Under the pieces are notes generated by a model that ran no database searches, had not been told where the DNA came from, and saw only the letters and a program-made list of their open reading frames with translations. From positions 1 to 64,000 of IMG/VR virus record IMGVR_UViG_3300032093_000109: a DNA stretch of 64,000 nt. The stretch is one strand, 5' to 3'. The translations under genes and the position numbers were made by a program. Shown in pieces: positions 18,588-49,838 of the stretch. The stretch is from a virus. How positions within the stretch are numbered: position 1 is the stretch's first letter; each line of letters opens with the position of its first letter.

Positions 18588-18603
18588 TTGACAGCATTAG
18601 ACA
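18588..18603 (-). promoter_or_regulatory. Diverged copy of the operator-like motif
   Basis: On the minus strand it reads TGTCTAATGCTGTCAA, sharing 11 of 16 positions with TGTCTAACACTGGACA. It is 98 bp from site 1. It may be a second, weaker binding site or a chance match. Confidence 0.35.
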
Positions 18604-18737
18604 AAAATGGTGGGGGTGGTTATGGAACAGTGTTATTGTACAGCGCCACCACACACGCCCAAAAGGGGTTCCCCCCGGTGGGTGGGGGTCAGAACCGCCA
18701 AAATTACCAAACCGCAAAACTGCCAAAAAAGCTGGAA

Positions 18738-18746: not shown

Positions 18747-18773
18747 AGAGGCATCTAATCAAGGTGGTTAGGT

Positions 18774-18796
18774 AATAGGGACACGTTGTCCCTATT
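18774..18796 (+). repeat. Hairpin A, copy 1
   Basis: AATAGGGACA-CGT-TGTCCCTATT has perfect 10-bp arms and is followed by TTGTTTTTG. It lies in the leader of the first early gene. The core AGGGACA/TGTCCCT is shared with four other intergenic copies. Confidence 0.85.
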
Positions 18797-18828
18797 TGTT
18801 TTTGTTCTTTTCAATTTGGAGTTTCATC

Positions 18829-19221
18829 ATGTCTCAATTCAAACCAGTCGTCGCCGCTTATCGCCAGTTCCTCAAGGCAGGCACAACCTACGGCACAGCC
18901 CTGCGCGACGTTGCCGCACAACTCAAAGGCGCATCGTGTCCCGAACTCATGCGAGAGCTGGCGACTGTTCACGCGGAGCATTTCGAGTGCAAGGTGTCGT
19001 GGTCAGGCAAAGGCGCGGCGCAGTTCTTCAAGGGTGCAGAGTATTCGTTCGAAGGGCGCTTTGATGCGGCCTACAAGTCTTGGCAACGCAACGTCTTGGT
19101 TCACTTCAGTGCGCCCAAGGAATCGTTCAAGACCGAAGCCGACCCTGTGGCCAAGATGATTAAGGCGATGGAAAAACTCACGCCAGCACAGCGCCGCAAA
19201 GTCTTGGCCGCTTTTCAGTGA
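18829..19221 (+). CDS. Early protein of unknown function (130 aa)
   Basis: The ATG at 18829 follows a GGAG and was preferred to an open frame starting at 18796 inside the hairpin. The protein is mixed helical and basic (AAYRQFLKAGTTYGTALRDVAAQL, SAPKESFKTEADPVAKMIKAMEKL). As the first gene after the early promoter it is a candidate host-takeover protein. The family is not recognised. Its TGA overlaps the second hairpin copy. Confidence 0.7.
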   Translation: MSQFKPVVAAYRQFLKAGTTYGTALRDVAAQLKGASCPELMRELATVHAEHFECKVSWSGKGAAQFFKGAEYSFEGRFDAAYKSWQRNVLVHFSAPKESFKTEADPVAKMIKAMEKLTPAQRRKVLAAFQ

Positions 19222-19278
19222 CAGGGACAGCGTGTCCCTGTTTTCTTCCGCACAACTCAGAGCGTCTGGGTTGTGCGG
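19221..19278 (+). repeat. Two-hairpin intergenic element, copy 2
   Basis: Hairpin A is ACAGGGACA-GCG-TGTCCCTGT (19221-19241, 9-bp arms). Hairpin B is CCGCACAAC/GTTGTGCGG (19248-19256 and 19270-19278). A ribosome binding site follows about 20 bp later, before the ATG at 19308. Confidence 0.8.
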
Positions 19279-19307
19279 TGTTTCAAAACCCGTCAAACGG
19301 AGAACCC

Positions 19308-19475
19308 ATGCAACTCATCACAACCCTTGGTAGGGCATCGCTCTACCGCAAAGAGTCCTACAACAGCCGCACAACACCGCTCATCGAATGGGTCGTGCGT
19401 GTCGGGGACAAGACGATGCGGGAGTGCCGCACCAAACGAGACGCCATGACATGGCTCAACATCTACAAGGATTAA
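19308..19475 (+). CDS. Small early protein (55 aa)
   Basis: The ATG at 19308 follows CGGAGAACCC. The protein reads MQLITTLGRASLYRKESYNSRTTPLIEW..DAMTWLNIYKD, basic with one Cys. It resembles nothing I know. It follows the two-hairpin element directly, a pattern seen at other early genes. Confidence 0.6.
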   Translation: MQLITTLGRASLYRKESYNSRTTPLIEWVVRVGDKTMRECRTKRDAMTWLNIYKD

Positions 19476-19480
19476 GCACC

Positions 19481-19606
19481 ATGCCCCAAAATCACCCAAC
19501 CTTTATGCGTTCCTTGCATGACTGCATATCCATACAGTGGTTGCCGCGCTGTCCAGTATTCGTGACAGCAACTGGCAGATATAGCGGTCATCTACAACCC
19601 GCATGA
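19481..19606 (+). CDS. Possible tiny protein (41 aa)
   Basis: The ATG at 19481 lies 5 bp after the previous stop, with AAGGA nine bases upstream. The protein (MPQNHPTFMRSLHDC..) has no known features. It may equally be non-coding, because this gap seems to hold the origin-like region. Confidence 0.3.
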   Translation: MPQNHPTFMRSLHDCISIQWLPRCPVFVTATGRYSGHLQPA

Positions 19607-19873
19607 AACCTAGCGCCTGCCAAAAAGGTGGCTCTATATATATAAATTTATTTAATTAAAAGATATATATATACACCCCTTTTTGTTTTGCCACCTTCTT
19701 GCGGAGAAAGAAGCTCTCAGGCTTTTTGGTTTTTCTATTTCCCCAGCGGCATGTTCACCGAACCCAAAAACCCTGCAACCCGCATAAACACAGGGCTTCT
19801 AGCTTGCCGTGCAACCCGCAGTTAGTGGCAGCGTCACTGGCGCAGCGCCAGTAGGTGTCAGTACGTGTGACAC
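19595..19873. other. Candidate replication origin: AT-rich island with short repeats
   Basis: A run of TA-rich sequence (19633-19672, several TATATA and TTTAATTAAA blocks) stands out in a GC-rich genome and is bracketed by GGTGGC and GCCACC. Three copies of CAACCCGCA lie at 19595, 19776 and 19812. A palindrome ACTGGCGC-A-GCGCCAGT lies at 19836-19852 and GTGTCA/TGACAC at 19855-19873. Iterons plus an AT-rich region are typical of origins, but no initiator is proven. The stretch 19607-19892 has no convincing gene. Confidence 0.45.
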
Positions 19874-19892
19874 TTAGCGGTACAATTCACCG

Positions 19893-19911
19893 CAGGGACA
19901 GCGTGTCCCTG
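19893..19911 (+). repeat. Hairpin A, copy 3
   Basis: CAGGGACA-GCG-TGTCCCTG with 8-bp arms, 23 bp before the ATG at 19934. No second hairpin is seen here. Confidence 0.85.
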
Positions 19912-19933
19912 TCCCACAAACCACGGAGCCCCC

Positions 19934-20677
19934 ATGAAAATCCAACCCGACGGCGACTTCGCCCTGCTCATACCCGACCCACACGATGAGGGCGTGAACC
20001 CACTCACGCTATGCCCCAAGTGCAACGCCTACAAACCGCCGAACAACTTCAAAGAGCACCTGACCAAGCTCCAAGCCCGCAAGCAAGGGTTTGCTGGAAC
20101 CCACGCCGTAGAGATAGAGCGCTCCATGTGCCTCGCGTGCCGCAACCCACGCAAGGAGTTCAACCCCATGAGCCTCAAAGAGATATCCAACGCCGTGTAC
20201 TACGGGGTGATGACCCAGTACGAGGCTGACGTGTTACGTGAGAAGCGAGCCAAGGCCCGCAGTATGACGAGCACCAACAACATGAGGGAGTACCACCACA
20301 ACAAACGCAAGGAGGCGTGGCGCGGTGTTCGTTCCGTACTCAGAGCGGACTCCCAGTGGGCCAGCAATTTGCTACGCCTACTAAGCCGGACAGACAGGGG
20401 TAGCACCAAGCTCTACGCTTTCGTAACGCGTTACAGGGGCGTACTACATAAGCACATGAGTGAGAAGGTGTGGTCAATCATGCGCACCGGCCCCAACTTC
20501 GACATACCACCACCCCCACGCAGACTCATCGAGTTACTGTCCGACCTGCCCGAGCCAGTCGGTGACCTGCGGGACGAGTGGTACATGAAGATACCTTACG
20601 AGCAGACGAACAGGATAAAGCCCCCTGCCTTAGTAAGGGAGGCGTTAGGTAACCTCGTCCTCCCCCAACCAGAGTAA
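19934..20677 (+). CDS. Zinc-finger early protein of unknown function (247 aa)
   Basis: The N-terminal third has two CxxC pairs (TLCPKCNAY near residue 27-34 and MCLACRNPR near 64-72), a likely zinc finger. The rest is basic and helical (NNMREYHHNKRKEAWRGVRS) with a Pro-rich stretch (DIPPPPRRL). There is no HNH core, so it is not obviously an endonuclease. The gene stands alone between two hairpin A copies. A nucleic-acid-binding role is inferred. Confidence 0.6.
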   Translation: MKIQPDGDFALLIPDPHDEGVNPLTLCPKCNAYKPPNNFKEHLTKLQARKQGFAGTHAVEIERSMCLACRNPRKEFNPMSLKEISNAVYYGVMTQYEADVLREKRAKARSMTSTNNMREYHHNKRKEAWRGVRSVLRADSQWASNLLRLLSRTDRGSTKLYAFVTRYRGVLHKHMSEKVWSIMRTGPNFDIPPPPRRLIELLSDLPEPVGDLRDEWYMKIPYEQTNRIKPPALVREALGNLVLPQPE

Positions 20678-20680
20678 CAG

Positions 20681-20742
20681 CAGGGACAGCGTGTCCCTGT
20701 CCACAAGTAAAGCCGAAGTCGGTGCGGCTCTCAATCACCGAC
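20681..20742 (+). repeat. Two-hairpin intergenic element, copy 4
   Basis: Hairpin A is CAGGGACA-GCG-TGTCCCTG (20681-20699). Hairpin B is GTCGGTG/CACCGAC (20718-20724 and 20736-20742). It is followed by ACATCAACTGGAGA and the ATG at 20763, a run also seen after copy 5. Confidence 0.85.
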
Positions 20743-20762
20743 ACATCAACTGGAGAATCATC

Positions 20763-20960
20763 ATGACCTATGCGTCAAGTATCAAGGAGAGAGAACTCGC
20801 CAAGCTCCGCACCCTGCGTGCTGAGTTCGCAGAGCGAGCAGAGATGAGCCGTCGCACGGATGAGTTCATGCGTAAGGCTGAGAAAGCGCAAGCACAGGAC
20901 GAGCTGGACTGGGGCCGCATCAAGGCCACCAGCTACCGCCTCAGACTCAACAAACGATAA
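20763..20960 (+). CDS. Small charged helical protein (65 aa)
   Basis: The ATG at 20763 follows TGGAGAATCATC. The protein is almost entirely a charged helix (IKERELAKLRTLRAEFAERAEMSRR..). It starts a run of tightly overlapping genes to 22155. Function is unknown; a coiled-coil partner protein is possible. Confidence 0.6.
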   Translation: MTYASSIKERELAKLRTLRAEFAERAEMSRRTDEFMRKAEKAQAQDELDWGRIKATSYRLRLNKR

Positions 20961-20971
20961 GGAGAAAGCAA

Positions 20972-21178
20972 ATGACCACACTAACCGGACACCAGATAGA
21001 GGCGGCTCGCCTATTGACCCTGCGCCAGATGTTGAACCTCGAAATCAAAGGACTGCACAAATCCCGAGGCCCGACTGCTTACTCAACGCTCAAGATGATG
21101 GGCTACAAGGGCTCACGACAAGACGTATTCAACGCGCTCACTGAGTGGCGCAACAACCTGATGGGAGAGACAGCATGA
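20972..21178 (+). CDS. Small early protein (68 aa)
   Basis: The ATG at 20972 follows AAGGAGAAAGCAA, a good ribosome binding site. The helical, basic protein contains ARLLTLRQMLNLEIKGL and KSRQDVFNALTEWRNNLMG-type segments. It overlaps the next gene by ATGA. The family is not recognised. Confidence 0.6.
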   Translation: MTTLTGHQIEAARLLTLRQMLNLEIKGLHKSRGPTAYSTLKMMGYKGSRQDVFNALTEWRNNLMGETA

Positions 21179-21390
21179 AGAAGTTAGTGAAACTACCCGG
21201 CACCGACATATGGGTCAACCCTATCCATGTGGTGTATGTAGAGCAGAAGGAGCCGTACGAAAACTACGGCAACGCTGGAAGGGCGCGAGTGGAGGTGTGC
21301 ATCACGATGTATGGCCGCTACCGCACAGTGGACGTATATGACACAACAGCCGCAAAGATTGTGGCACTCATCAATGGAGAGACAGCATGA
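21175..21390 (+). CDS. Small beta-rich protein (71 aa)
   Basis: The ATG at 21175 overlaps the upstream TGA. The protein reads KKLVKLPGTDIWVNPIHVVYVEQKE..VEVCITMYGRYRTVDVYD and looks like a compact beta fold. Such short VNP-x-H-V proteins resemble phage proteins of unknown role. It ends in GETA, as does its neighbour at 20972, because both end in the same GGAGAGACAGCATGA junction. Confidence 0.6.
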   Translation: MKKLVKLPGTDIWVNPIHVVYVEQKEPYENYGNAGRARVEVCITMYGRYRTVDVYDTTAAKIVALINGETA

Positions 21391-21581
21391 AACTGACTGA
21401 ATACCGCAACAACCTGTATGGCGACCGAGGTAGTGACGTAGTGGGGGCGTTGCAGTTTGCCTACCGCCTGATTGACACACTACCCAAGCGTGACCGACTA
21501 ACGGCCCTGACTGCAATGATGGTCGTGGTCAACACAATGGTCAACGCATCTGAAATCGAAACACCGAAGGAACGGAAATGA
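21387..21581 (+). CDS. Small helical early protein (64 aa)
   Basis: The start overlaps the upstream stop (ATGA). The protein contains VVGALQFAYRLIDTLPKRDRLTALTAMMVVVNTM, with hydrophobic helices but no clear membrane segment. It overlaps the NinX-like gene by ATGA. Function unknown. Confidence 0.6.
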   Translation: MKLTEYRNNLYGDRGSDVVGALQFAYRLIDTLPKRDRLTALTAMMVVVNTMVNASEIETPKERK

Positions 21582-21925
21582 AAACATCTGAACTGACAGG
21601 AGCCGCTCTCGACTGGGCGGTGGCGAAATGCGAGGGGCGCGGCATAGAGTTTGACGACCCACGCGACCCATGGCTGACCCGTGACGGCATCGCAGACCAG
21701 CCGCTCCACAGCTACACACCATCAACCGACTGGGCACAAGGCGGGCCGATCATTGAGAGGGAGGGCATCAGCATTGGCGCTCATTTGGACGGGGGGGAAT
21801 GGTTTGCCCGTGATTATTGGGGCATGAATGAGCAAGCCGCAGAAAAGCCCCTGATTGCCGCCATGCGGTGCTACGTGGCATCCAAACTGGGCGACAACAT
21901 CGACATACCGGAGGAACTCAAATGA
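21578..21925 (+). CDS. NinX-like protein (DUF2591)
   Basis: The 115-residue protein has MKTSELTGAALDWAVAKCEG, YTPSTDWAQGGPIIEREGIS and PLIAAMRCYVASKLGDNIDIPEEL, all signatures of the DUF2591/NinX phage family. NinX proteins occur in the early or nin regions of many phages and are of unknown function. It lies inside a run of overlapping small genes. Confidence 0.85.
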   Translation: MKTSELTGAALDWAVAKCEGRGIEFDDPRDPWLTRDGIADQPLHSYTPSTDWAQGGPIIEREGISIGAHLDGGEWFARDYWGMNEQAAEKPLIAAMRCYVASKLGDNIDIPEELK

Positions 21926-22155
21926 ACTACGACCTCGACACAACAGAAGGCATGACCAACGCTGTGCAGTGGAACAACAAACAACTGGCACGCGTAGCCG
22001 ATGGGGGTATCTGGATAGTCCCCCGCTCTGGCTTGATTGTCCGCATCGTGGATGGCATGCGCAAGGTGGCGTCTATCCGTGAGGGGCATACGCCTGACCC
22101 CAGTGTGCGCCGTGTCATGGTGGCCGCTGGCTGGACTGTGCAAGACGCCAAGTAA
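21922..22155 (+). CDS. Small early protein (77 aa)
   Basis: The ATG at 21922 overlaps the NinX stop (ATGA). The protein has QLARVADGGIWIVPRSGLIVRI and DPSVRRVMVAAGW, a compact mixed fold with no known family. It ends just before the fifth hairpin A copy. Confidence 0.6.
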   Translation: MNYDLDTTEGMTNAVQWNNKQLARVADGGIWIVPRSGLIVRIVDGMRKVASIREGHTPDPSVRRVMVAAGWTVQDAK

Positions 22156-22158
22156 TTC

Positions 22159-22202
22159 AGGGACAACGTGTCCCTATCCGTAGCCGATGCGGTTTCATCG
22201 GC
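22159..22202 (+). repeat. Two-hairpin intergenic element, copy 5
   Basis: Hairpin A is AGGGACA-ACG-TGTCCCT (22159-22175, 7-bp arms). Hairpin B is GCCGATG/CATCGGC (22183-22189 and 22196-22202). CACATCAACAGGAGA follows, then the ATG at 22225. Confidence 0.85.
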
Positions 22203-25160: not shown

Positions 25161-25847
25161 ATGGAAAACGCACTGCAACACGCACTCAAGAACGCCATGA
25201 CAGGCGCAACAAAGCAATGGTTCGATGACGAGCCAGATACACAACCTCAAGCACTCAATCAAACACAGGAGAAATCAATCGTGCAAGCACCACAAACCCT
25301 TACCCTCGCACAGACAGACAACACACAATCCCCCGAGCGCGGCTCACAAGTTCGAGCCGTCTACAAGATGCTTGTCGAGACACCCAAGGTGACGTGCTCT
25401 CAGTTAGAAAAGCGCGCCAGAGACATGGGCTACCCTTGGTTCGACAGCATCAGTGGCCAGCTCAAGTTGTTGTACGACCGAGGCTTGGTCATGCGTGTGA
25501 AGCTGCCGCCCGAAGGCACGGACTACAAGTCCTCATACCGTTACTGGCCCATAGCCATGACGCTTGATGAAGCAATGGCGAAGGTTAAGCAAGAGCGTGA
25601 GGCTAAGAGCAAGGCAGGTCTGGCAGGTCTCTCTATCAACAAAGAGAAAGCCAACAAAGAGAAAACTGTGCAGAGGTTGGTACCCAAGAAGAAGCCCGTG
25701 CCTACTGTTGAGCAGTTCGAGCAAGCGCAAGCCGCGCAACCCATCAAGATGCTTCGTGTAGGCGTTGACCCCAAGCATGTGGTCGAGAGTTTGTCGGTAC
25801 GCGATGCGCGTGCCGTGTATGAAGAACTCAAGAAGTTGTTTTCCTAA
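25161..25847 (+). CDS. Putative winged-helix regulator (228 aa)
   Basis: The ATG at 25161 follows AAGGAGCTTTAGAA. Residues about 60-130 (VRAVYKMLVETPKVTCSQLEKRARDMGYP..SGQLKLLYDRGLVMRV) look like a winged-helix fold, with helices and a strand pair (LVMRVKL). Flanks are Gln-rich and Lys-rich, probably flexible. As the first gene after an operator-bearing promoter, it could itself bind that operator. The family is not recognised. Confidence 0.55.
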   Translation: MENALQHALKNAMTGATKQWFDDEPDTQPQALNQTQEKSIVQAPQTLTLAQTDNTQSPERGSQVRAVYKMLVETPKVTCSQLEKRARDMGYPWFDSISGQLKLLYDRGLVMRVKLPPEGTDYKSSYRYWPIAMTLDEAMAKVKQEREAKSKAGLAGLSINKEKANKEKTVQRLVPKKKPVPTVEQFEQAQAAQPIKMLRVGVDPKHVVESLSVRDARAVYEELKKLFS

Positions 25848-27567: not shown

Positions 27568-27818
27568 CGCTTCCCGGACTCATTGATGCGGTCGAGTTTC
27601 GACGCGACAGCTACGGCCTGACGCAAGGTGAGTGGGCCTTTGTGCTTGGCATCCAGCCTAGTCATTACAGTGAATTTGTCAACAGCAAACGCGCCCTGCC
27701 TATTGGTGCAATGGCCAAGTGCTTCGAGTACGGAGTCCCGGCTGAGTGCCTGTTTCAGTGCCTACCGAACAAAACCATCAGGCACATCAAAGCCAAACTC
27801 AAGGAGAAGAACACATGA
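27564..27818 (+). CDS. Small XRE-like HTH protein (84 aa)
   Basis: The ATG at 27564 lies in the ATGA overlap. Residues about 17-45 (SYGLTQGEWAFVLGIQPSHYSEFVNSKRALP) are a helix-turn-helix like XRE/Cro. The 84-residue size fits a Cro-like monomer. It is a candidate phage regulator of the early operon. The end KAKLKEKNT is the junction tail. Confidence 0.65.
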   Translation: MTLPGLIDAVEFRRDSYGLTQGEWAFVLGIQPSHYSEFVNSKRALPIGAMAKCFEYGVPAECLFQCLPNKTIRHIKAKLKEKNT

Positions 27819-40920: not shown

Positions 40921-41101
40921 CTACCCATGGGACAGGCTGGAGAAAGGGCAGGGGTTCTTCATCCCTGCCCTCGACCTTGAGAAAGCCAGAGAAGACGGAC
41001 TGATTGCAGCTATGCAGGTCCGCTTCTTCTACCCCCACTACATGTACGTCATCAAGGACGGACTCATTGGGGTCTGGTTCTACCGAACGCCCATCACTTA
41101 G
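40910..41101 (+). CDS. Small conserved phage protein at the end of the early region (63 aa)
   Basis: The ATG at 40910 overlaps the primase stop. The protein (PWDRLEKGQGFFIPALDLEKAREDGLIAAMQ..YVIKDGLIGVWFYR) resembles small phage proteins with GFF(I/V)P-x-L-D-L. Its stop overlaps the convergent 2914-residue gene by 8 bp. No terminator hairpin was seen here. Confidence 0.65.
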   Translation: MRINYPWDRLEKGQGFFIPALDLEKAREDGLIAAMQVRFFYPHYMYVIKDGLIGVWFYRTPIT

Positions 41102-44100
41102 CCATCCGCGCAACCTCTTTGACCTGCTCCGCCAGCTTGCGCTGGTACAAGTCAATCTCGTTCAGGCGCTCGCGCTTCTCTGCGGCGCTGAAGTCCGGGT
41201 CGCTGTTGATGGCTCGGCGCATCGCAGCCAGCTCACCCATGGCCTGTTGGAAGCTACCACCGGTAGAGCTCAGCGCGATCTCACGTGCATACTTGTCGGC
41301 GAAGGCCCGTGCCTCGGCCTGACGGCCGTCCGTGACCAACCGCTTGAACGTGCCGGCTGCCTGCTGCCAGTCCTCAACATCCGCGTACACCGACGCCACG
41401 ATACCGCGCCCGTTGTTGGGTTGGAACGCAGCGCCGAAGAATGGTGTCTCGGTGAGCTTGCTCTCGGCGTTCTCTCCTGCAGTGTCGCTGTTGAACGGGC
41501 GCAGTACCGGGTTGACCAAAGACATTGTCAAGATACCAAGGCTGCCGGTGTAGCCGCGAACCAAGTGCTCGACCTGCAGCGGAGACACGCCGACTTGTCC
41601 CATCAGCTTGGCCAGCTCCGTGGTGTTGGGGCGGTAGCGCTCGGCCGGGATGGTGCCCAGTTCGCGCTGGCTCTCGATCGGTGCCTTGGTAAAGAAGCTG
41701 TAGTTGGCCATCGACTCAATGATGGGCTTGGCAATCGTTGGGATGTCGCCGGGAATGGACATACCCAGAACGTGACGCAAGCCCTTCAGTGTGTCCTTGG
41801 ATTCGGCATCATTAAACGCTGCGTTGAAAATCAACTCAGGGATGGCTTTGGCCACAGCACCGACTTCAAACGGGATTGGTATCCGAATCGCCGCCTCAAG
41901 TCCGGGTACAGGGATGAACCAGTTCATGGCCCGTTCTTCTGGCGTGGCGTTTTTGTACGCCTCGTCGTCTTGCATGGCCACAGCGTACGCCAAGGTAGCG
42001 CCCATCATCAATGCTGCGCGTTGGTACAGCTTCTGACGAACCTGCAGCTTGTCTTGGAAGACCGTTTCGCCCGTCACACCCGTGCGCCAGACCGAGTCCA
42101 GACCTTGGAGCTGAGCGTTGAAGAACGGGATCAGCGTGGAGATCATGTACAGGCTGGTGGACGTACCCCGGCGTGAGAAGTTCATCACCTCGGCGGCACC
42201 CAGCGCGGCTTCGAAGTGGCTCATGCCTTGCTCACGGTACTTGTCGTACAGCACAGCGCGGGTAGCGGTATCGCCTTGCAGGGCGAAGTTGTCCAGACTC
42301 TGCATTGCAGAACTCCAGCTCATGCCGCCTTGATTGGCCAAGTCCCGCAGGGTGCGTGAGGCGTCGTTAAAGTCGCCCGTCATCACGTTGGAGCTGACAG
42401 CGCCGGAGCGCATGAGTTTAATTTCGGTTGGGCTCAGGCCACGGCGAATCTTCGTCATCTCTTTGATCGAGCTGACAATAGGCGTGAAGTTCAAGCCCGT
42501 GACCATCCAAGCGTGCAATGGGTCACGGATCATCTGGCGGATCATGTACAGGGGCATGCGAACAATAGACGAGCGCAGCCATTGCGTTGGCATACCAGCA
42601 ATTTTCAGCGCCGTAGGTACGGACGCTTTGATACCGTGCAGACCTTGGAGCAGTAGCTCGGCAGGAATATCTTTGGGGAACAGGTCCGCATCTAACTTGA
42701 CCCAGAACGACTTGCCGGCCTGCTTGAAACGAATTGAGTTGGCCGGACCCTCGCCTTCGACGATCGTACCCATACCCAAGCTCTGCACCATGTACCCTAC
42801 ATCACGCGCTTGCAAGTTTTGCATGGACATGCGGGTGAGCAACTGGGCGTTCTGCATCACGCTCTCAGTAAAGCCGAGGAAGTCTTTCTCCCCGCCAACC
42901 AAGTCCTTGAGCTGGGGCTGCTGAATGACGTTACCAATTGTGCGGCGGGTGTTACCCACAAGCATCTCGATGTTGCCGTTATCCGTCTGGCGATAAAACG
43001 GCACGTAGTTACCGCTCTTAAAGTAGTTCCACTCCGCGTTTGTGAAGACGCCCGCAGCGTGCGCAAAGTCCAGCATACCTAAGTTGTACTCACGGAACTC
43101 TTTCTCCGCCTGCTCAAACGCTTGCTTGACCTTGGGGTTCTTTGCGATGAACTCCTTCTGCTCACGGATTTCTCGAACAGTTGGAGGGTTGCGCATGTTG
43201 AGCACCTCATACCCGCGCTTGTCGCCCTCAATACGCTTGATCTGCATGTACTTGTAGAACTGCTCTTCGACGGCCTTCATGTTGCCGATGTCTGGCACAG
43301 CGCCGCGCAGGGTCTGCAGTACCTTCATGACCGACGGCTTCTTGTCATCCACGTCTACGCCGAAGTAACCCTTCTCGTCCTTGACCAACTTCAAAGGGCC
43401 GTTCAAAAGGGCTTGGTGTACAAAACGGTTGATCTCACTGTACAAGCGCATGTAGATGCGTGTCTGCATGGCATCGGTCTCGGTCAGCTTCTTGCCGCTT
43501 AGACCCATCTGCACCAGAGCTTCACGTGCGCCCCATGCGTCCAGTGTTTTGACGCGCAGACCCAGCGCCCATGTGGAAAGCTTTTCGTTGAAGGTTTTGC
43601 TGCGTTGATCGCTGCCGCCGAAGGACCGCCGCATGCTCTCAGGCACATTGGCGTTGTACTTGGCGTTGTCGCCGGGGACGATACCCCGCATGACCGAGGC
43701 GACGCGGGCAGCCGCGATAGGCTGTGCAGGAGCAAACAGCTTGTAGATGTTCTCGACGGCTTGGTCAGAAACAGTCTTTGGCGAGAAGCCCAGCATGCGC
43801 AGAATAGCGTCGTACATGCGCTGCAGAACACCGCGCTCGTCCAGCATGTTGCGCAGCTTGTTGTTGGACATTACCTCGGAGACCATCTCTTCCACGGAGT
43901 ACTTGGCGTACTCGCGGTTGAAACGGGGGTCGGCCTGCACTTTTGCAAACAGGCTTTCCAAGTCTTGACGGGCTTGGCGCTGCTCGGGGGTCAGTGTGGC
44001 TGGGTCTGCGCGGAGCAAAGTCAAGGTAGCGGGGTGCACCACCTCGTGCAAGAACGCTTCCTCAGTCATGCCGGTGACGCTGCTGATCTGGACCTGCATG

Positions 44101-47100
44101 TCTTTGCCGACGTACAAACCTTCCACAGGCACGCCGTTGGAGTCCACCACGTTGGGGTTGGAGACGAGCGTCACACCTTTGAGGTACGGGGCCACGAGCT
44201 TAGCCAGCTCACGCACGAAAGGCGTGGAGCCTTCTTCTTGCAGACGGACCAAAGCGTCTTCCAGATTACCGGAGCGCACTTCTTCCTTGACCGTGGTGGG
44301 CAGCTCTGTGGTTGGGCGAGCGTCGTAATCCGCGTTTCGGATTACAGAGGCGTGAGTGTCGTCTCCGTAGTACATGTCACCGATAACGTCCTGCAAGTAG
44401 TTTGCTTCTTTGGACGCTTTTGGTGCGCGTGTTGGTTGCTTTTTCTTTTTCTTCTCGGCAGCAACGACCGCCTCTACGATTGGGGTAGCCTCTGCCTTGG
44501 CATCTTGCAGTTCTTTTGCGATCTTGTTGGCTGTCTTCTGCTCTTTCTTTCCAACAGGTGTGTCGCGTTGCTTGGTGCCGCGTGCCTCTTCAATCTTGGT
44601 CTCAGGCACGGGGACGTTCTTGTCATTGATGCTTTCTTCAGACGCAGTGCGAAGCTTACGAGGCGCTGCAGATTGCTTTCGAGTAGCAGGGCCTGTGCTC
44701 TGCGTATTCGCTGCGTTCTGGATGTCGCGTAACTGGCTCAGTTTGTAGCGGTACTCACCCAGCAACGCCCTAGCGTTTTGAGTAGCAACGGAGTCACCGC
44801 TTTCTTGCGCGGCGTCAAAGTCTGCCTGCGCATCTTTAACTTGTTGCTCCGCATCCGACAACGCCTTGGCGTTTACATTACGGGGTTCGGCCAAACGTGC
44901 TTGACGTGCCTCGTTCAAACCGTCCAGCTTAGTCTGCGCTGCAGCAAGCGCGGCTTCTGCGTTCTTGACGGCTTTGGGTTTGCCTTGTTCTTTGGCTGCA
45001 TCCAACGCAGCCCGCACGTTTCTGACTTGCTTCTCGGCGGCACTGATTGCATCCAGTTCGCGGTCTCGCGTCTCGGCCATTTGAGCGGCTTGCTCTTGGC
45101 GCTGCTGTTCCGGCGTTTTAATGGCGGTTTTGGTAACACCCGTTCTGCGGCCAATCTTGGCGTCGCGTTCGTTGAGTTGCTTCAACAGGTTGTCGATCTT
45201 CTGCTGCTGCTTAGCCCGCTTCGGCTTCTCAAGTTCTGCACGGTTTGCCCCGCGCTCGACGGCCTTACGCTCTTTCTGGTTAAGCAGCTCCCCTGCCAAC
45301 TTATCGCGTTCTTTGGCGAGGTTCTCCAAAATAATCGCTCGGGCGCGTAAATCGTCCTGCAGGGTAGCGTCGCGCTTTTCTCTGCTGAGTTCCACCTCGG
45401 CCTCTACTGCGCGAAGGGCGGCAACCGCTGCAGCACGCTCGTCTGCACTCAAAGCAACGAGGTTTTTATCCACACCGCTTTCAACCCGCGCAATAAGCTC
45501 AGCCACCTTGTCTTTACCTAGATCACTGATGATGTCTTGAATCTGTTCACGGCGCTTTTCGAAGGACACCAGTGTGCGTGACGAGTAGACCGGCAACAGC
45601 GCTTCAATAGCCGCTTGTGTGTCTTTGCGCTCTGCCTTGGGTGCGACGCGGACGTTGCGGCGTTCGGTTTCTTTTTGTTTACCCTTGATGGCGTCTTTGT
45701 AGCGGTTAACCGCTTCGCGCATGGCGTCGGACTGCCGCGCCAACTCTGTCAGCTGCGCTTCAAGGGGTTTAACCAGCGCATCCATGCGAGTCTTCAAACC
45801 GGCTTCAACGTCTGCACGAATAGTGCGGGCCACGTCGGCGTCGGAACGCAACGCGTTGAGCTCTTGCACCAACTCCGGATCAGCACCCAGCGCTTTGAGC
45901 GCGGCATCGAGGCTACGCTTAGCGTTGTTGCGTGCTGTTGTCAGACCTGTCATGCGGCGGGACAGCGTGCGCAGCTCAAGCTGCAACGCAATATCTTTCT
46001 GCAAAAAGTCCAGTGTGCGCTCGTCTTTGCGTGCCGCCGGGTCAGTGGTCCACCAGAAACTGCGCATCTCGTTGATGAGTTTCTGATGTGTGTCTTGCAC
46101 TTGCTTTTGAAGGCGTTGCAGCTCGTCTTTATCCGCAACCAGTGCGGCGTAATCGGGGGTCTTTTGGCTGACGCGCACATTTGTGCCGTACAGTTTGTTC
46201 CAAGCCTCGTCGTATTTTTTCTTAGCGGCGTTGTAGAACGACGTGTAGCCTTGCAAAGTACGCAAGGTGTTCTTGACCTTGGTGACACGCTCGTCTTTTT
46301 GCTTTTCGCGCTTCTCGATAGCGTCGATGGCTGCGCTGAAATCCGCCTGCTGCGTTTCAATTTGGCTGGTGATTTGCTCCGAAGCAATCTTGGCTTCCGT
46401 CAGTTTGGCATATGCGTTCCAGTACGCCATGTTGAACGGCAACAGCGCTTCGTCCATGTCCGCTTGCAGTTCCGACAGAGCTTTTTTGGTTTCTTGCACC
46501 AACGCTTCTGCCACTGCTTTTTCAGGTGAGCCGTCAAGCTCTTGCTGAGCAGCGTTGCGCTGCGCGATCAGCCGCGCAATTTCTTCCTGCAACTCTTTTG
46601 CGCGTGTTTCCAGAGGGGCCATAAGCTTCTGCGCACGGGCTTGCGTTTCGCCAACAAGGTCAAGCGCGTCTCGCACTTGAGCCAACTCGGTGCTGGCCAT
46701 GTAATTGTCGAAGTCGAGGAAGTCGGAGAACAGGGTGCCGATGTCTGCGGCAAACATGTCGGTTTGAACGGCACGGCGAACTTCGCCCGTGGCACGGCGA
46801 TCCATGCCGCCTTCTTTGCCTTCGCGGCTGGTGCCACGCAGTGCTTCGCGCTCTTTGGGTGTGTACGCACGCCCCGCACGCTCAGTGACTTGCTCGGTCT
46901 CGGAGCGCTTTGCTTCGTCAATGTTGCGCAGAATGGCTTGCACTTCTTTGCGAAGCGTGGGGGACGGGTTGCCTGTGGTCAGGCCGTACAAATACTCGCC
47001 GACAATTTCTGTCGCGCTCTCGCCATCGACGCTTGCTTTTTTGATACCGGGCAAGTCGTCTTGGACGCGCTCAAACAATGCGCCATCTTCGTCAGACAAG

Positions 47101-49838
47101 CGGTTGGGATCAACGCGCTCAACCAGCTTGTCGAGCATTGCGTCCGTGATACGTGCAGGGGTAAGCGTCCGTTCAACACCCGCGCCGCGTTTGGGGGCGA
47201 TGGCTTTATTGCGGATTTCGTTCAAACCTTCTTCGATCGACTTGGCTGCAGCGTAGCGGTTGGCGAATGTGCGACGGCCGGGTATACGGCCTTCTTTACG
47301 CGCAACGCCCATACCAGTGCCAGTCACGGCACCCTGCGCTTCAGGACTATCTTCCGGTACCAAGACGCGTTCGCCGTTGAGCTCGACTTCAACCATGTCG
47401 CGGGTATCGCCAAAACGGTCTTTCAACTCTTGCACTTGCTCTTTGGCAGCAGCAATAATCTGAGTCCGCTCCATGGCTGTGACAGGTTCGCCACGAACGG
47501 CTTCGATCTCGTTGACCAGCGTGTTGTACACCTGCTGTTCAGCGGCGTCCAGTTCATTCTGTTTGGCTTTACCTTTGTTGAAACGGTCAAGCAGCGTCAC
47601 GGTTTTGGCGTACGCAACGGCGCGAGCATCGGAGGCAGTTTGCGCAAGCCTTACGTCTTGCGGCTGCTTGGAGCCGAACACTTCTTGCAACGCACGGGTG
47701 TCTGTGCCACGAGGCGTGCTTTCTTTGGTTTCGCGCTGCTTGAGTTCTCGCAGTTCCTCAATGGTTCGCTCTGCCGCTTTTTTGTCGCCAAGAACACGCG
47801 CAAGCTGCAAATCGGCCTCAAGTTTGGCCCGAGTAGGCGTGCCGTCAACAACGCCGGAACCGCTGACAACATCTGACCGCAAGGTATCTTGTGGAAAGAG
47901 AGTTCCCTGCGCGGTTTGGCTGGTGTCCATACGCGCCAGCTTATTGATTTCGTCAAGCTCCGCCCGCAGTTCGCGCTCTCGAATTGCATAGCTAGCGGGG
48001 CGCGAGCCCATGTCCCGTAGGGCTTGTATCTCTCGCTCAATTTCGGCACGTCGGGCGTCTGCTTGCTCTCGCCCAATACCCATCTCGGAACCAAGCTGGC
48101 TCAAACGACTACGCAACCCTGCGCGAACCAAGTTAGCCTGCTCTATACTCATGCCCGGTAGCGCACCTCGGGTCTGGGCAACCGCCATAGCGCGGCCGGG
48201 GTCTTCTGCCAGAGCCTCGATCATCTGCTCGCCCGACAGCCGCACACCTTGGCTGGCGTCAATACCGGCCAGTGCCAACTCAGGGTTGTTGTCGATGGCT
48301 TCTTGCTTGGCGCGTTGTGTGGCCGCACTCAGTTGCTGCTGCACGTAGTACGGAATCTGTTCTTCTGCAGAAACAGGTGCTGATGGGAACGCTTCTGCGT
48401 CCACGCCTTCAGGCAAAGCTTCGCCGGACATGACGGCGCGGCGGCGGGGGGCACCTGTGCGAGGGTCACGCGTCGGGGTGCTTGGGATGCCAATGTCTTC
48501 TGCCAGCGCATCTTCAGGCGTCATTTCGGTCATGCGCTTGAGCTGGTTGATGCGTGGGGCCAAACCTTGGTACTGCTCTTTAAGCGCGTCGTACCCAACC
48601 TGCTGGCGCACTGCGCGAATCTGGTTGCTGATGTTGGTGTTGTGCTCACGGTCTTCATCGACCGTGGGGGAGTTCTTGACGATCTTGCGCTTTTGTTCTT
48701 GCAGGCTCTGGAGCTGCTGCGTGGCTTGCTCGTACTTGCTGGCGATGTCCAACGCGTATTCGTCGGACGCTTTGTAGTCGGCGTCTTTTTTGGCTTCTTG
48801 GGCAAGGCGCTCTTCTTCTGCCTTGCGGGCAGCAATACTCATGGAGCGATCGGGCAGGGCCACGCCCAGTGCCGCGCCACCCAGACCACCGGCCAACGCT
48901 TCTTGCGTGGCTTGACCCGCCACACCGGTAAACGCATCCACATCGCGCCCAGTGCGTTGCAAAGCCAAGTTGGCAGCCAAGCGCTCTTGACCGCCCTGCA
49001 GACCTTCGAGTGGGAATTCACCAGCGGCTGCAGTCAGACCCGTAGCTCCGCGCTCGCCAATACGCTTGGCTAAAGCCTGCTGGGCAGCGCCTGCCTGTGC
49101 ACGAACACCACCGGGAATCAATCTTTCAGCACCGGTCGAGCCGGCCACAACACCCAAACCACCGCCCAGCAAGATTTGGTCCAAGTTCTCACCGACGTAA
49201 CTTTGCGCACGGGCAGCGGCGGCTTGCGCTTCTTCAGGGGACTTTTTGTCTTCGAGCTCAGCTTGGAGCACCGCTTCATAGACGTTCTGTTTTACAGCGC
49301 CTGCACCTTGGGCGCCACCGATCGCACCGCGCACCGCCATGATGGCGCGTGCACCCAAACCAATTTTTGCCAAAGGCAGTGTGGCCACCATGGGCGCGAA
49401 GGAGCCCAGTGCAGAGGCGGTTGTCTGAATAGGCGCTTCAAGGACGTTGAGCAGACCGGCCTTAATTTCTTCCCAAGTGGAGCCGGACTCTTCGGCCTTC
49501 TTCATGCGAGCAGCTTGCGCTTGCAACTCGGCTTGGCGGCTGGTGCTCAGGCCCTTCTGGAGGGACTCGCCTGTCTCTGCAAGGTAGCGGGATGCTGCGT
49601 TGTCTGCACCAAAAATACTGGTTAAAGCACCAGTAGCCCCGACTGCGCCAGACGCAAACGAGCGCCCGAGATCGCCCAAGTAAGAACCTTGCTCTTTTGG
49701 TGGCTCTGGTGGGGGTGCAACTTCTTCTTGAAAAGCATCCGGAAAAAGCTGCATTGCCGCTAAGTACGCGTCTTCTGGACGTTGCCCCTTGCGGAGTTCA
49801 ACAAGGTCACCGTTCGGGAGCTCAACGTATTGGGGCAT
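41094..49838 (-). CDS. Giant polyvalent internal virion protein (2914 aa)
   Basis: The N-terminal 330 residues have hydrophobic Gly/Ala helices (GAVGATGALTSIFGADN) suited to membrane insertion. The middle (about 330-1700) is very long coiled coil. A zincin motif FLHEVVHP lies at H1931-H1935, with KYSVEEMVSEVMS after it as a possible third ligand. The C-terminal part (about 2460 onwards) has RGLSPTEIKLMRSGAVSSN, a block that recalls LPD38 polyvalent-protein regions. It is the longest gene in the window and the last of the tail/internal cluster. It probably enters the host with the DNA. Confidence 0.75.
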   Translation of the reverse strand: MPQYVELPNGDLVELRKGQRPEDAYLAAMQLFPDAFQEEVAPPPEPPKEQGSYLGDLGRSFASGAVGATGALTSIFGADNAASRYLAETGESLQKGLSTSRQAELQAQAARMKKAEESGSTWEEIKAGLLNVLEAPIQTTASALGSFAPMVATLPLAKIGLGARAIMAVRGAIGGAQGAGAVKQNVYEAVLQAELEDKKSPEEAQAAAARAQSYVGENLDQILLGGGLGVVAGSTGAERLIPGGVRAQAGAAQQALAKRIGERGATGLTAAAGEFPLEGLQGGQERLAANLALQRTGRDVDAFTGVAGQATQEALAGGLGGAALGVALPDRSMSIAARKAEEERLAQEAKKDADYKASDEYALDIASKYEQATQQLQSLQEQKRKIVKNSPTVDEDREHNTNISNQIRAVRQQVGYDALKEQYQGLAPRINQLKRMTEMTPEDALAEDIGIPSTPTRDPRTGAPRRRAVMSGEALPEGVDAEAFPSAPVSAEEQIPYYVQQQLSAATQRAKQEAIDNNPELALAGIDASQGVRLSGEQMIEALAEDPGRAMAVAQTRGALPGMSIEQANLVRAGLRSRLSQLGSEMGIGREQADARRAEIEREIQALRDMGSRPASYAIRERELRAELDEINKLARMDTSQTAQGTLFPQDTLRSDVVSGSGVVDGTPTRAKLEADLQLARVLGDKKAAERTIEELRELKQRETKESTPRGTDTRALQEVFGSKQPQDVRLAQTASDARAVAYAKTVTLLDRFNKGKAKQNELDAAEQQVYNTLVNEIEAVRGEPVTAMERTQIIAAAKEQVQELKDRFGDTRDMVEVELNGERVLVPEDSPEAQGAVTGTGMGVARKEGRIPGRRTFANRYAAAKSIEEGLNEIRNKAIAPKRGAGVERTLTPARITDAMLDKLVERVDPNRLSDEDGALFERVQDDLPGIKKASVDGESATEIVGEYLYGLTTGNPSPTLRKEVQAILRNIDEAKRSETEQVTERAGRAYTPKEREALRGTSREGKEGGMDRRATGEVRRAVQTDMFAADIGTLFSDFLDFDNYMASTELAQVRDALDLVGETQARAQKLMAPLETRAKELQEEIARLIAQRNAAQQELDGSPEKAVAEALVQETKKALSELQADMDEALLPFNMAYWNAYAKLTEAKIASEQITSQIETQQADFSAAIDAIEKREKQKDERVTKVKNTLRTLQGYTSFYNAAKKKYDEAWNKLYGTNVRVSQKTPDYAALVADKDELQRLQKQVQDTHQKLINEMRSFWWTTDPAARKDERTLDFLQKDIALQLELRTLSRRMTGLTTARNNAKRSLDAALKALGADPELVQELNALRSDADVARTIRADVEAGLKTRMDALVKPLEAQLTELARQSDAMREAVNRYKDAIKGKQKETERRNVRVAPKAERKDTQAAIEALLPVYSSRTLVSFEKRREQIQDIISDLGKDKVAELIARVESGVDKNLVALSADERAAAVAALRAVEAEVELSREKRDATLQDDLRARAIILENLAKERDKLAGELLNQKERKAVERGANRAELEKPKRAKQQQKIDNLLKQLNERDAKIGRRTGVTKTAIKTPEQQRQEQAAQMAETRDRELDAISAAEKQVRNVRAALDAAKEQGKPKAVKNAEAALAAAQTKLDGLNEARQARLAEPRNVNAKALSDAEQQVKDAQADFDAAQESGDSVATQNARALLGEYRYKLSQLRDIQNAANTQSTGPATRKQSAAPRKLRTASEESINDKNVPVPETKIEEARGTKQRDTPVGKKEQKTANKIAKELQDAKAEATPIVEAVVAAEKKKKKQPTRAPKASKEANYLQDVIGDMYYGDDTHASVIRNADYDARPTTELPTTVKEEVRSGNLEDALVRLQEEGSTPFVRELAKLVAPYLKGVTLVSNPNVVDSNGVPVEGLYVGKDMQVQISSVTGMTEEAFLHEVVHPATLTLLRADPATLTPEQRQARQDLESLFAKVQADPRFNREYAKYSVEEMVSEVMSNNKLRNMLDERGVLQRMYDAILRMLGFSPKTVSDQAVENIYKLFAPAQPIAAARVASVMRGIVPGDNAKYNANVPESMRRSFGGSDQRSKTFNEKLSTWALGLRVKTLDAWGAREALVQMGLSGKKLTETDAMQTRIYMRLYSEINRFVHQALLNGPLKLVKDEKGYFGVDVDDKKPSVMKVLQTLRGAVPDIGNMKAVEEQFYKYMQIKRIEGDKRGYEVLNMRNPPTVREIREQKEFIAKNPKVKQAFEQAEKEFREYNLGMLDFAHAAGVFTNAEWNYFKSGNYVPFYRQTDNGNIEMLVGNTRRTIGNVIQQPQLKDLVGGEKDFLGFTESVMQNAQLLTRMSMQNLQARDVGYMVQSLGMGTIVEGEGPANSIRFKQAGKSFWVKLDADLFPKDIPAELLLQGLHGIKASVPTALKIAGMPTQWLRSSIVRMPLYMIRQMIRDPLHAWMVTGLNFTPIVSSIKEMTKIRRGLSPTEIKLMRSGAVSSNVMTGDFNDASRTLRDLANQGGMSWSSAMQSLDNFALQGDTATRAVLYDKYREQGMSHFEAALGAAEVMNFSRRGTSTSLYMISTLIPFFNAQLQGLDSVWRTGVTGETVFQDKLQVRQKLYQRAALMMGATLAYAVAMQDDEAYKNATPEERAMNWFIPVPGLEAAIRIPIPFEVGAVAKAIPELIFNAAFNDAESKDTLKGLRHVLGMSIPGDIPTIAKPIIESMANYSFFTKAPIESQRELGTIPAERYRPNTTELAKLMGQVGVSPLQVEHLVRGYTGSLGILTMSLVNPVLRPFNSDTAGENAESKLTETPFFGAAFQPNNGRGIVASVYADVEDWQQAAGTFKRLVTDGRQAEARAFADKYAREIALSSTGGSFQQAMGELAAMRRAINSDPDFSAAEKRERLNEIDLYQRKLAEQVKEVARMAK

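Follow-up and report, generated by a model that had tools for sequence, protein, structure and literature searches.

An early-region palindrome family in a podovirus-like genome: five repeats that are most likely binding sites of the first early gene's protein

In the cluster A mycobacteriophages L5, Bxb1 and TipsytheTRex, a monomeric helix-turn-helix (HTH) repressor of temperate phages binds 20–30 stoperators, which are asymmetric 13-bp sites oriented with transcription (PMC6550527, PMC9283540). In the prophage SPbeta, a 15-bp repeated intergenic element was identified in silico well ahead of the discovery of its repressor MrpR, a protein of tyrosine-recombinase fold whose sites lie in promoter regions (PMC10516654). 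Here we describe a repeated palindrome, AGGGACA-NCG-TGTCCCT, in the early region of a viral genome from the IMG/VR collection (record IMGVR_UViG_3300032093_000109). The window analyzed comprises positions 1 to 64,000 of that record; coordinates refer to it, and the sites, hairpins, promoters and genes placed below between 18500 and 22202 are on its plus strand. Based on comparison with related genomes, we propose that the five repeats are most likely the binding sites of a small protein encoded by the first early gene, gene 1 (18829–19221), whose 130-amino acid (aa) basic product is the candidate cognate dyad-binding regulator.

All five copies reported in a first-pass annotation of this DNA are present, beginning at 18774, 19221, 19893, 20681 and 22159, each in an early intergenic gap and together spanning 3.4 kb. 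When up to 3 mismatches are allowed, the pattern gives 11 strand-matches where shuffled sequences predict 0.53, and no match falls outside the 3.4-kb early stretch of the 65,313-base virus record. Site 1 (18774–18796) lies in the gene 1 leader, with a T-rich tract following it, and is reversed, with CGT as its plus-strand centre, whereas the remaining copies read GCG or ACG. Site 2 (19221–19241) overlaps the gene 1 stop codon by one base, the final one, and gene 1 is flanked by the palindrome on both sides, with one copy in its leader and another just past its stop codon. Farther downstream are site 3 (19893–19911), site 4 (20681–20699), which begins 3 nt past a stop codon, and site 5 (22159–22175).

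About 40 relatives with roughly 80% identical terminases were available for comparison. Most of those reaching far enough carry a palindrome family of their own, in 2–7 copies and in the homologous gaps. Their arms, each given with its centre length, include GGGTCA-3, GGGGACA-2, GTGGACA-3, GGGGGTA-4, GGGGAAG-4, TTGCGACA-2 and TGTTGACA-3, as well as GGGGAGA-2, GCGGACA-3, CGCGACA-3, AGAGAGA-3, GGGGTCA-2, GGGTTCA-2 and TGTTACA-3. One contig, L024, is 93–96% identical to the window across most aligned stretches, and at its sites 1–4 the window palindrome is replaced by CAGGAACA-CG-TGTTCCTG. At all four sites the left arm changes from G to A, one centre base is lost and the right arm changes from C to T, while the flanks are otherwise conserved. 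Block recombination was considered as the source of this change and rejected, because at site 2 the flanking sequence stays conserved as far as the three altered bases. Site 5 is the same in both genomes (9498–9514 in L024) and lies within an identical block. Exact matches to the window pattern in viral contigs were single-copy in 14 of 16 cases and were taken as chance; for one of them, L003 (the same contig as L024), the chance reading was dropped, since this contig is a genuine relative in which the other four sites have changed. A single arm sequence in each genome, exchanged wholesale, points to a trans-acting, sequence-specific factor. No such repeat family was seen in the stretches examined of the cultured relatives DSL-LC04 and HTVC023P, and bacterial genomes gave only one distant terminase match, in a betaproteobacterial metagenome-assembled genome. 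Separately, the early regions of L059, L068, L071, L080 and L087 hold tandem hairpins of the GCCGGC-TGC-GCCGGC type, spaced by 22–27 nt, upstream of a palindrome family with the sequence CGGCAA.

Across 30 genomes, gene 1 distance tracks palindrome distance (rho 0.26, Mantel p 0.0001), and it continues to do so in a partial test on the terminase (0.29, p 0.0005). Terminase (terL) distance itself does not track the palindrome (p 0.80). Nor, in 17 genomes, does that of a 247-aa CxxC...CxxC protein encoded between sites 3 and 4 (19934–20677; p 0.71), which by simple clustering is the only widespread early protein besides gene 1. Gene 1 is 99% identical between L026 and L034 and 98% identical between L036 and L050, and the palindrome is shared within each pair; between L026 and L036, gene 1 is 25% identical, the terminase and the CxxC protein are each 98% identical, and the palindromes differ on both sides of the CxxC gene. 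We rejected the CxxC protein as the specificity factor on the same comparisons, because its 98% identical copies accompany different palindromes, whereas the pairs L026/L034 (35% identical in this protein) and L036/L050 (33%) share theirs. The CxxC protein itself shows weak similarity to an endonuclease PHROG (E 0.0024), and its alleles are exchanged independently of gene 1.

In a prospective test, searches were made with gene 1 protein alignments alone. A palindrome follows the stop codon in 34 of the 37 distinct matches; the corresponding figures are 20 of 138 for other genes and 18 of 740 for shuffled windows. The leader and post-stop half-sites of the gene 1 matches agree in 24 of 26 cases. 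Family B gene 1 proteins go with GGGACA-like sites and family E proteins with GGGTCA sites, even at an N-domain identity of 52%. Within family E, a GATTCA subgroup has exactly five N-domain differences (K6E, R38E, E43K, F56W and V81K), three of which are charge reversals; these positions are candidate specificity residues. It is the N-domain of gene 1 that tracks the palindrome. Profile comparison joins gene 1 families A and B (E 4e-6) and families B and E (E 6e-9); direct comparison of A with E is not significant. We are confident, though short of certain, in proposing gene 1 as the cognate DNA binder. The C-terminal helical modules of gene 1 (e.g., DPVAKxIxAxxKLTPA) look, by eye, exchanged between families (the window gene 1 and L105–L176), independently of N-domain and palindrome type.

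The manner in which the palindrome is conserved suggests the form in which it is read. Both orientations of the centre are found within genomes (CCG/CGG, GTTT/AAAC and TT/AA), and centre length ranges from 2 to 4 among families. Imperfect sites at 78 loci include 22 single changes that break pairing and 12 that give G.U, compared with one compensated double change, and this sole case (GGGGACA type, L036) may be a different element. With duplicate contigs removed, the inner A-to-G variant is found in 9 left halves, where it gives G.U in mRNA, and in 10 right halves, where it gives an A.C mismatch. The conserved feature of the palindrome is half-site identity, not pairing. Because centres lie both ways, deviant half-sites go uncompensated and the sites change in concert with gene 1, we propose that a symmetric protein recognizes the palindrome in duplex DNA. 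These same observations contradict the view of the palindrome as an RNA element, which the first-pass annotation had taken from pairing that is kept while sequence changes.

That argument from retained pairing does hold for a second hairpin (39 distinct stems at 51 loci), and the annotation had merged two different elements. Second hairpins are real at 19248–19278, 20718–20742 and 22183–22202, after sites 2, 4 and 5, and are absent downstream of sites 1 and 3. Relatives bear out their covariation, most of all at the hairpin that follows gene 1 (19248–19278; 14 pairs, GCG loop). At 65 distinct loci this hairpin has a mean stem of 9.2 pairs compared with 6.3 in dinucleotide shuffles, and stems of at least 8 pairs occur at 66% of loci but in 16% of shuffles; the best stem was taken per sequence, which makes the shuffles a fair control. 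The stems are 39 distinct among 51, and each inner position shows all six pair types. Because pairing is kept while sequence changes, RNA structure is selected here. A U-rich tail follows (19279–19298), with a family consensus, read by eye, of about UGUUUCAUUUCUUGUCnAAC and the window sequence TGTTTCAAAACCCGTCAAAC. As in an intrinsic terminator, a stable covarying stem is joined to a U-rich tract, here imperfect, from which partial termination is predicted to be likely. Hairpins 4 (20718–20742, GTCGGTG-CGG..-CACCGAC) and 5 (22183–22202, GCCGATG-CGGTTT-CATCGGC) are of another type, with a 7-pair stem, a loop opening with CGG and then ACATCAACnGGAG, so that the elements extend to 20757 and 22217; the sequence reported as common to copies 4 and 5, CACATCAACnGGAGA, is indeed present after both hairpins. 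The two differ at two stem positions changed on both sides (T-A to C-G and G-C to A-T), and the type recurs with two-sided stem changes in a few relatives (L026/L154, L121, L028 and L035). They are probably stability or translation elements of the 5' untranslated region. Palindrome and second hairpin are separable, since no second hairpin accompanies sites 1 and 3, and in L034 and L050 hairpin 5 persists although the palindrome has been lost.

The placement of the sites bears on what a bound protein might do. Gene content in the window is podovirus-like (terminase, portal, DNA polymerase A, an LPD38 protein of 2914 aa and a DUF927 protein similar to primases), with leftward structural genes upstream of 18373 and rightward early genes from 18829. 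Promoter P1 (18500–18529) is a strong sigma-70 match (TAGACA-18-TATAAT, 11/12) with counterparts in many relatives about 185–270 nt upstream of site 1. Promoter P2 (18738–18746) is an extended -10 (TGGTATAAT) a short way 5' of site 1. Between P2 and site 1 is a putative leader hairpin, CTAATC..GGTTAG (18755–18771), read directly from the sequence; relatives' leaders hold hairpins too, of differing sequence. A further -10-like hexamer, TACAAT (19881–19886), lies immediately 5' of site 3. In nine genomes, the window included, copy 1 is 33–44 nt 3' of a -10 hexamer; most later copies start no more than 9 nt past the preceding stop codon, and palindrome sites are restricted to the early region. 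The location of copy 1 downstream of promoters and of later copies after stop codons favours control of elongation over promoter occlusion. The two early promoters also enclose a non-coding block (18600–18690) that is conserved in nearly all 22 aligned genomes (GGTTGkGGAAyAGTGTTC ... GGTGGGGG..GGTGGGG), for which a genome end, a packaging site, an origin or a leader RNA are candidates.

We propose that gene 1 encodes a small two-part protein whose N-domain would bind the dyads in double-stranded DNA as a homodimer. Because copy 1 is in gene 1's own leader, 3' of two promoters, and the other copies are just past stop codons inside the early operon, the bound protein would most likely act as a roadblock to elongation. 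Stepwise silencing would extend from its own transcript to the downstream early genes, much as with stoperators, and the covarying terminator-like hairpin may assist shut-off at gene 1. Site and protein would be exchanged together, probably because a changed specificity evades the regulators of related phages. One palindrome family per genome, its co-variation with gene 1, its placement and its DNA-type conservation are directly supported. The best explanation of the whole that we can offer, and one that is probably correct, is that the gene 1 product is a novel autoregulator that binds the dyads and blocks or tunes transcription of the early region; as to the direction of its action, the balance tips toward gene 1 repressing or roadblocking early transcription.

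Several observations weigh against this proposal. At site 5 the coupling to gene 1 breaks down in L024, L026 and L036, where the counterpart is GGGGAC..GTCCCC-like despite their differing own families; the site could be a relic, could have been transferred recently or could serve another factor. Some relatives (L059/L068/L071/L080, L078, L081 and L085) have another palindrome family or no clear one. Placement is not uniform, as copy 1 in family E is upstream of the nearest promoter (by about 59 nt). The Mantel correlation is modest, since half-sites saturate between families, and family membership amounts to shared ancestry. Finally, gene 1 has no recognized DNA-binding domain and no Pfam, PHROG or PDB relative, its family has no match among 50,697 phage records, and fold searches with two gene 1 models gave no match (predicted local distance difference test 79 and 86, predicted template modeling score 0.58).

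It is also possible, if unlikely, that the gene 1 protein loaded on the dyads is a positive regulator that promotes elongation or initiation, by Q-like antitermination or by activation. The evidence for binding would be the same, T-rich tracts or terminator-like hairpins follow sites 1 and 2, and the family E copy about 59 nt upstream of a promoter would suit an activator. However, most copies lie within the operon past stop codons, far from promoters, and the leader site is 3' of the start of gene 1's own transcript.

Less probable again is RNA antitermination of the type used by lambda N, which reads an RNA hairpin loop (boxB). Here the palindrome would form a boxB-like RNA hairpin bound by an N-like gene 1 protein, and RNA polymerase would pass the terminator hairpins. 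As with lambda N and nut, the first early gene encodes a small basic protein, the cognate element is in its own leader and ahead of a terminator-like hairpin, and specificity differs between relatives, as it does for lambdoid N/boxB. Yet conservation resides in the stems rather than in the loops, centres lie in both orientations and single half-site deviations break pairing and go uncompensated. A.C mismatches in mRNA (10) are as common a result of the inner A-to-G variant as G.U pairs (9), and centres of two nucleotides would form poor RNA hairpins. These features favour duplex DNA half-sites over lambda-like RNA; a conserved loop with compensated pairing was not found. In lambda nut, boxA adjoins the hairpin; a conserved U-rich tail is seen here, only at a different position.

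We consider it quite improbable that the palindromes act in cis, as intrinsic terminators or, along the lines of the first-pass annotation, as RNA processing or stability hairpins, with no trans-acting factor. T is over-represented behind copies 1 and 2 (0.38–0.42 against a background of 0.20–0.23), and the stem of site 1, taken together with the T tract behind it, is scored as a terminator. Copies 3 and later, however, mostly have no T tract, and hairpins acting in cis need no common sequence per genome, yet one arm sequence is kept and changes in concert. An Rfam search gave no match at the palindrome sites. Phage N4 has hairpin promoters (stem 5–7, loop 3) that serve its virion RNA polymerase. 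Promoters of this kind were suggested here by the 3-nt centre, the shape and position of the palindrome before early genes and the 2914-aa virion protein, but are hardly credible given that this protein matches LPD38 and not N4 polymerase, that sigma-70 promoters lie 5' of site 1 and that centres of 2–4 nt occur in both orientations. No N4-type polymerase was recognized (a PF00940 search was empty, with controls that held no positive).

The window phage and its relatives appear lytic, because no integrase or serine recombinase (PF00589, PF00239) was found in the window record and six relatives (five of 60–67 kb and one of 22 kb), contigs not proven to be complete. Their host is probably a betaproteobacterium living in freshwater. 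Selection by phage–phage interference is a tentative suggestion. More speculative still is a hypervariable, modular self-recognition system in lytic freshwater phages, in which an early protein of a new fold family would silence early operons bearing the same dyad. Such a system could provide superinfection immunity or competition without lysogeny and switch specificity by replacing the protein and all its sites. Well over ten half-site types with matched proteins on near-constant backbones constitute a natural experiment in the rewiring of protein–DNA specificity at four or more sites at once. If gene 1 does repress, repressor/operator diversification, usually tied to lysogeny, would seem to extend to phages in which no integrase was found, and the palindrome would be a simple marker to predict which environmental phages interfere with one another.

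Among the other features of the window, gene 2 (19308–19475) encodes a 55-aa protein with no function assigned, and a small early open reading frame (27600–27719) has a weak HTH_3 match under the cut-off and is a possible further regulator. An Rfam sroE match at 25786–25845 is below threshold (E 0.0015, 28.9 bits against a gathering score of 51) and is probably chance. The 2914-aa LPD38 protein (41094–49838) has an HExxH-like motif (FLHEVVH) and is probably an ejected virion protein.

The SPbeta element resembles this one in being a motif repeated in the intergenic regions of one phage genome. Unlike MrpR, gene 1 has no match to the tyrosine-recombinase fold, with weak contact to an arm-DNA-binding profile in only two members. 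The differences from cluster A stoperators lie in the sites and in the protein: here the sites are 15–20-bp dyads with centres in both orientations, in 4–7 copies and in the early operon only, and gene 1 has no homology to the L5-type HTH protein (no Pfam, PHROG, PDB or fold match). No integrase was found here, and specificity is uncoupled from genome relatedness. Because the sites are symmetric, the protein is unrelated and no integrase was found, we do not class this system as a member of the cluster A stoperators. In their likely working, however, those stoperators appear to be the closest analogy: in both systems several similar sites occupy short intergenic spaces downstream of an early promoter, many of them distant from promoters, and the phage-specific consensus co-varies with the cognate phage protein.

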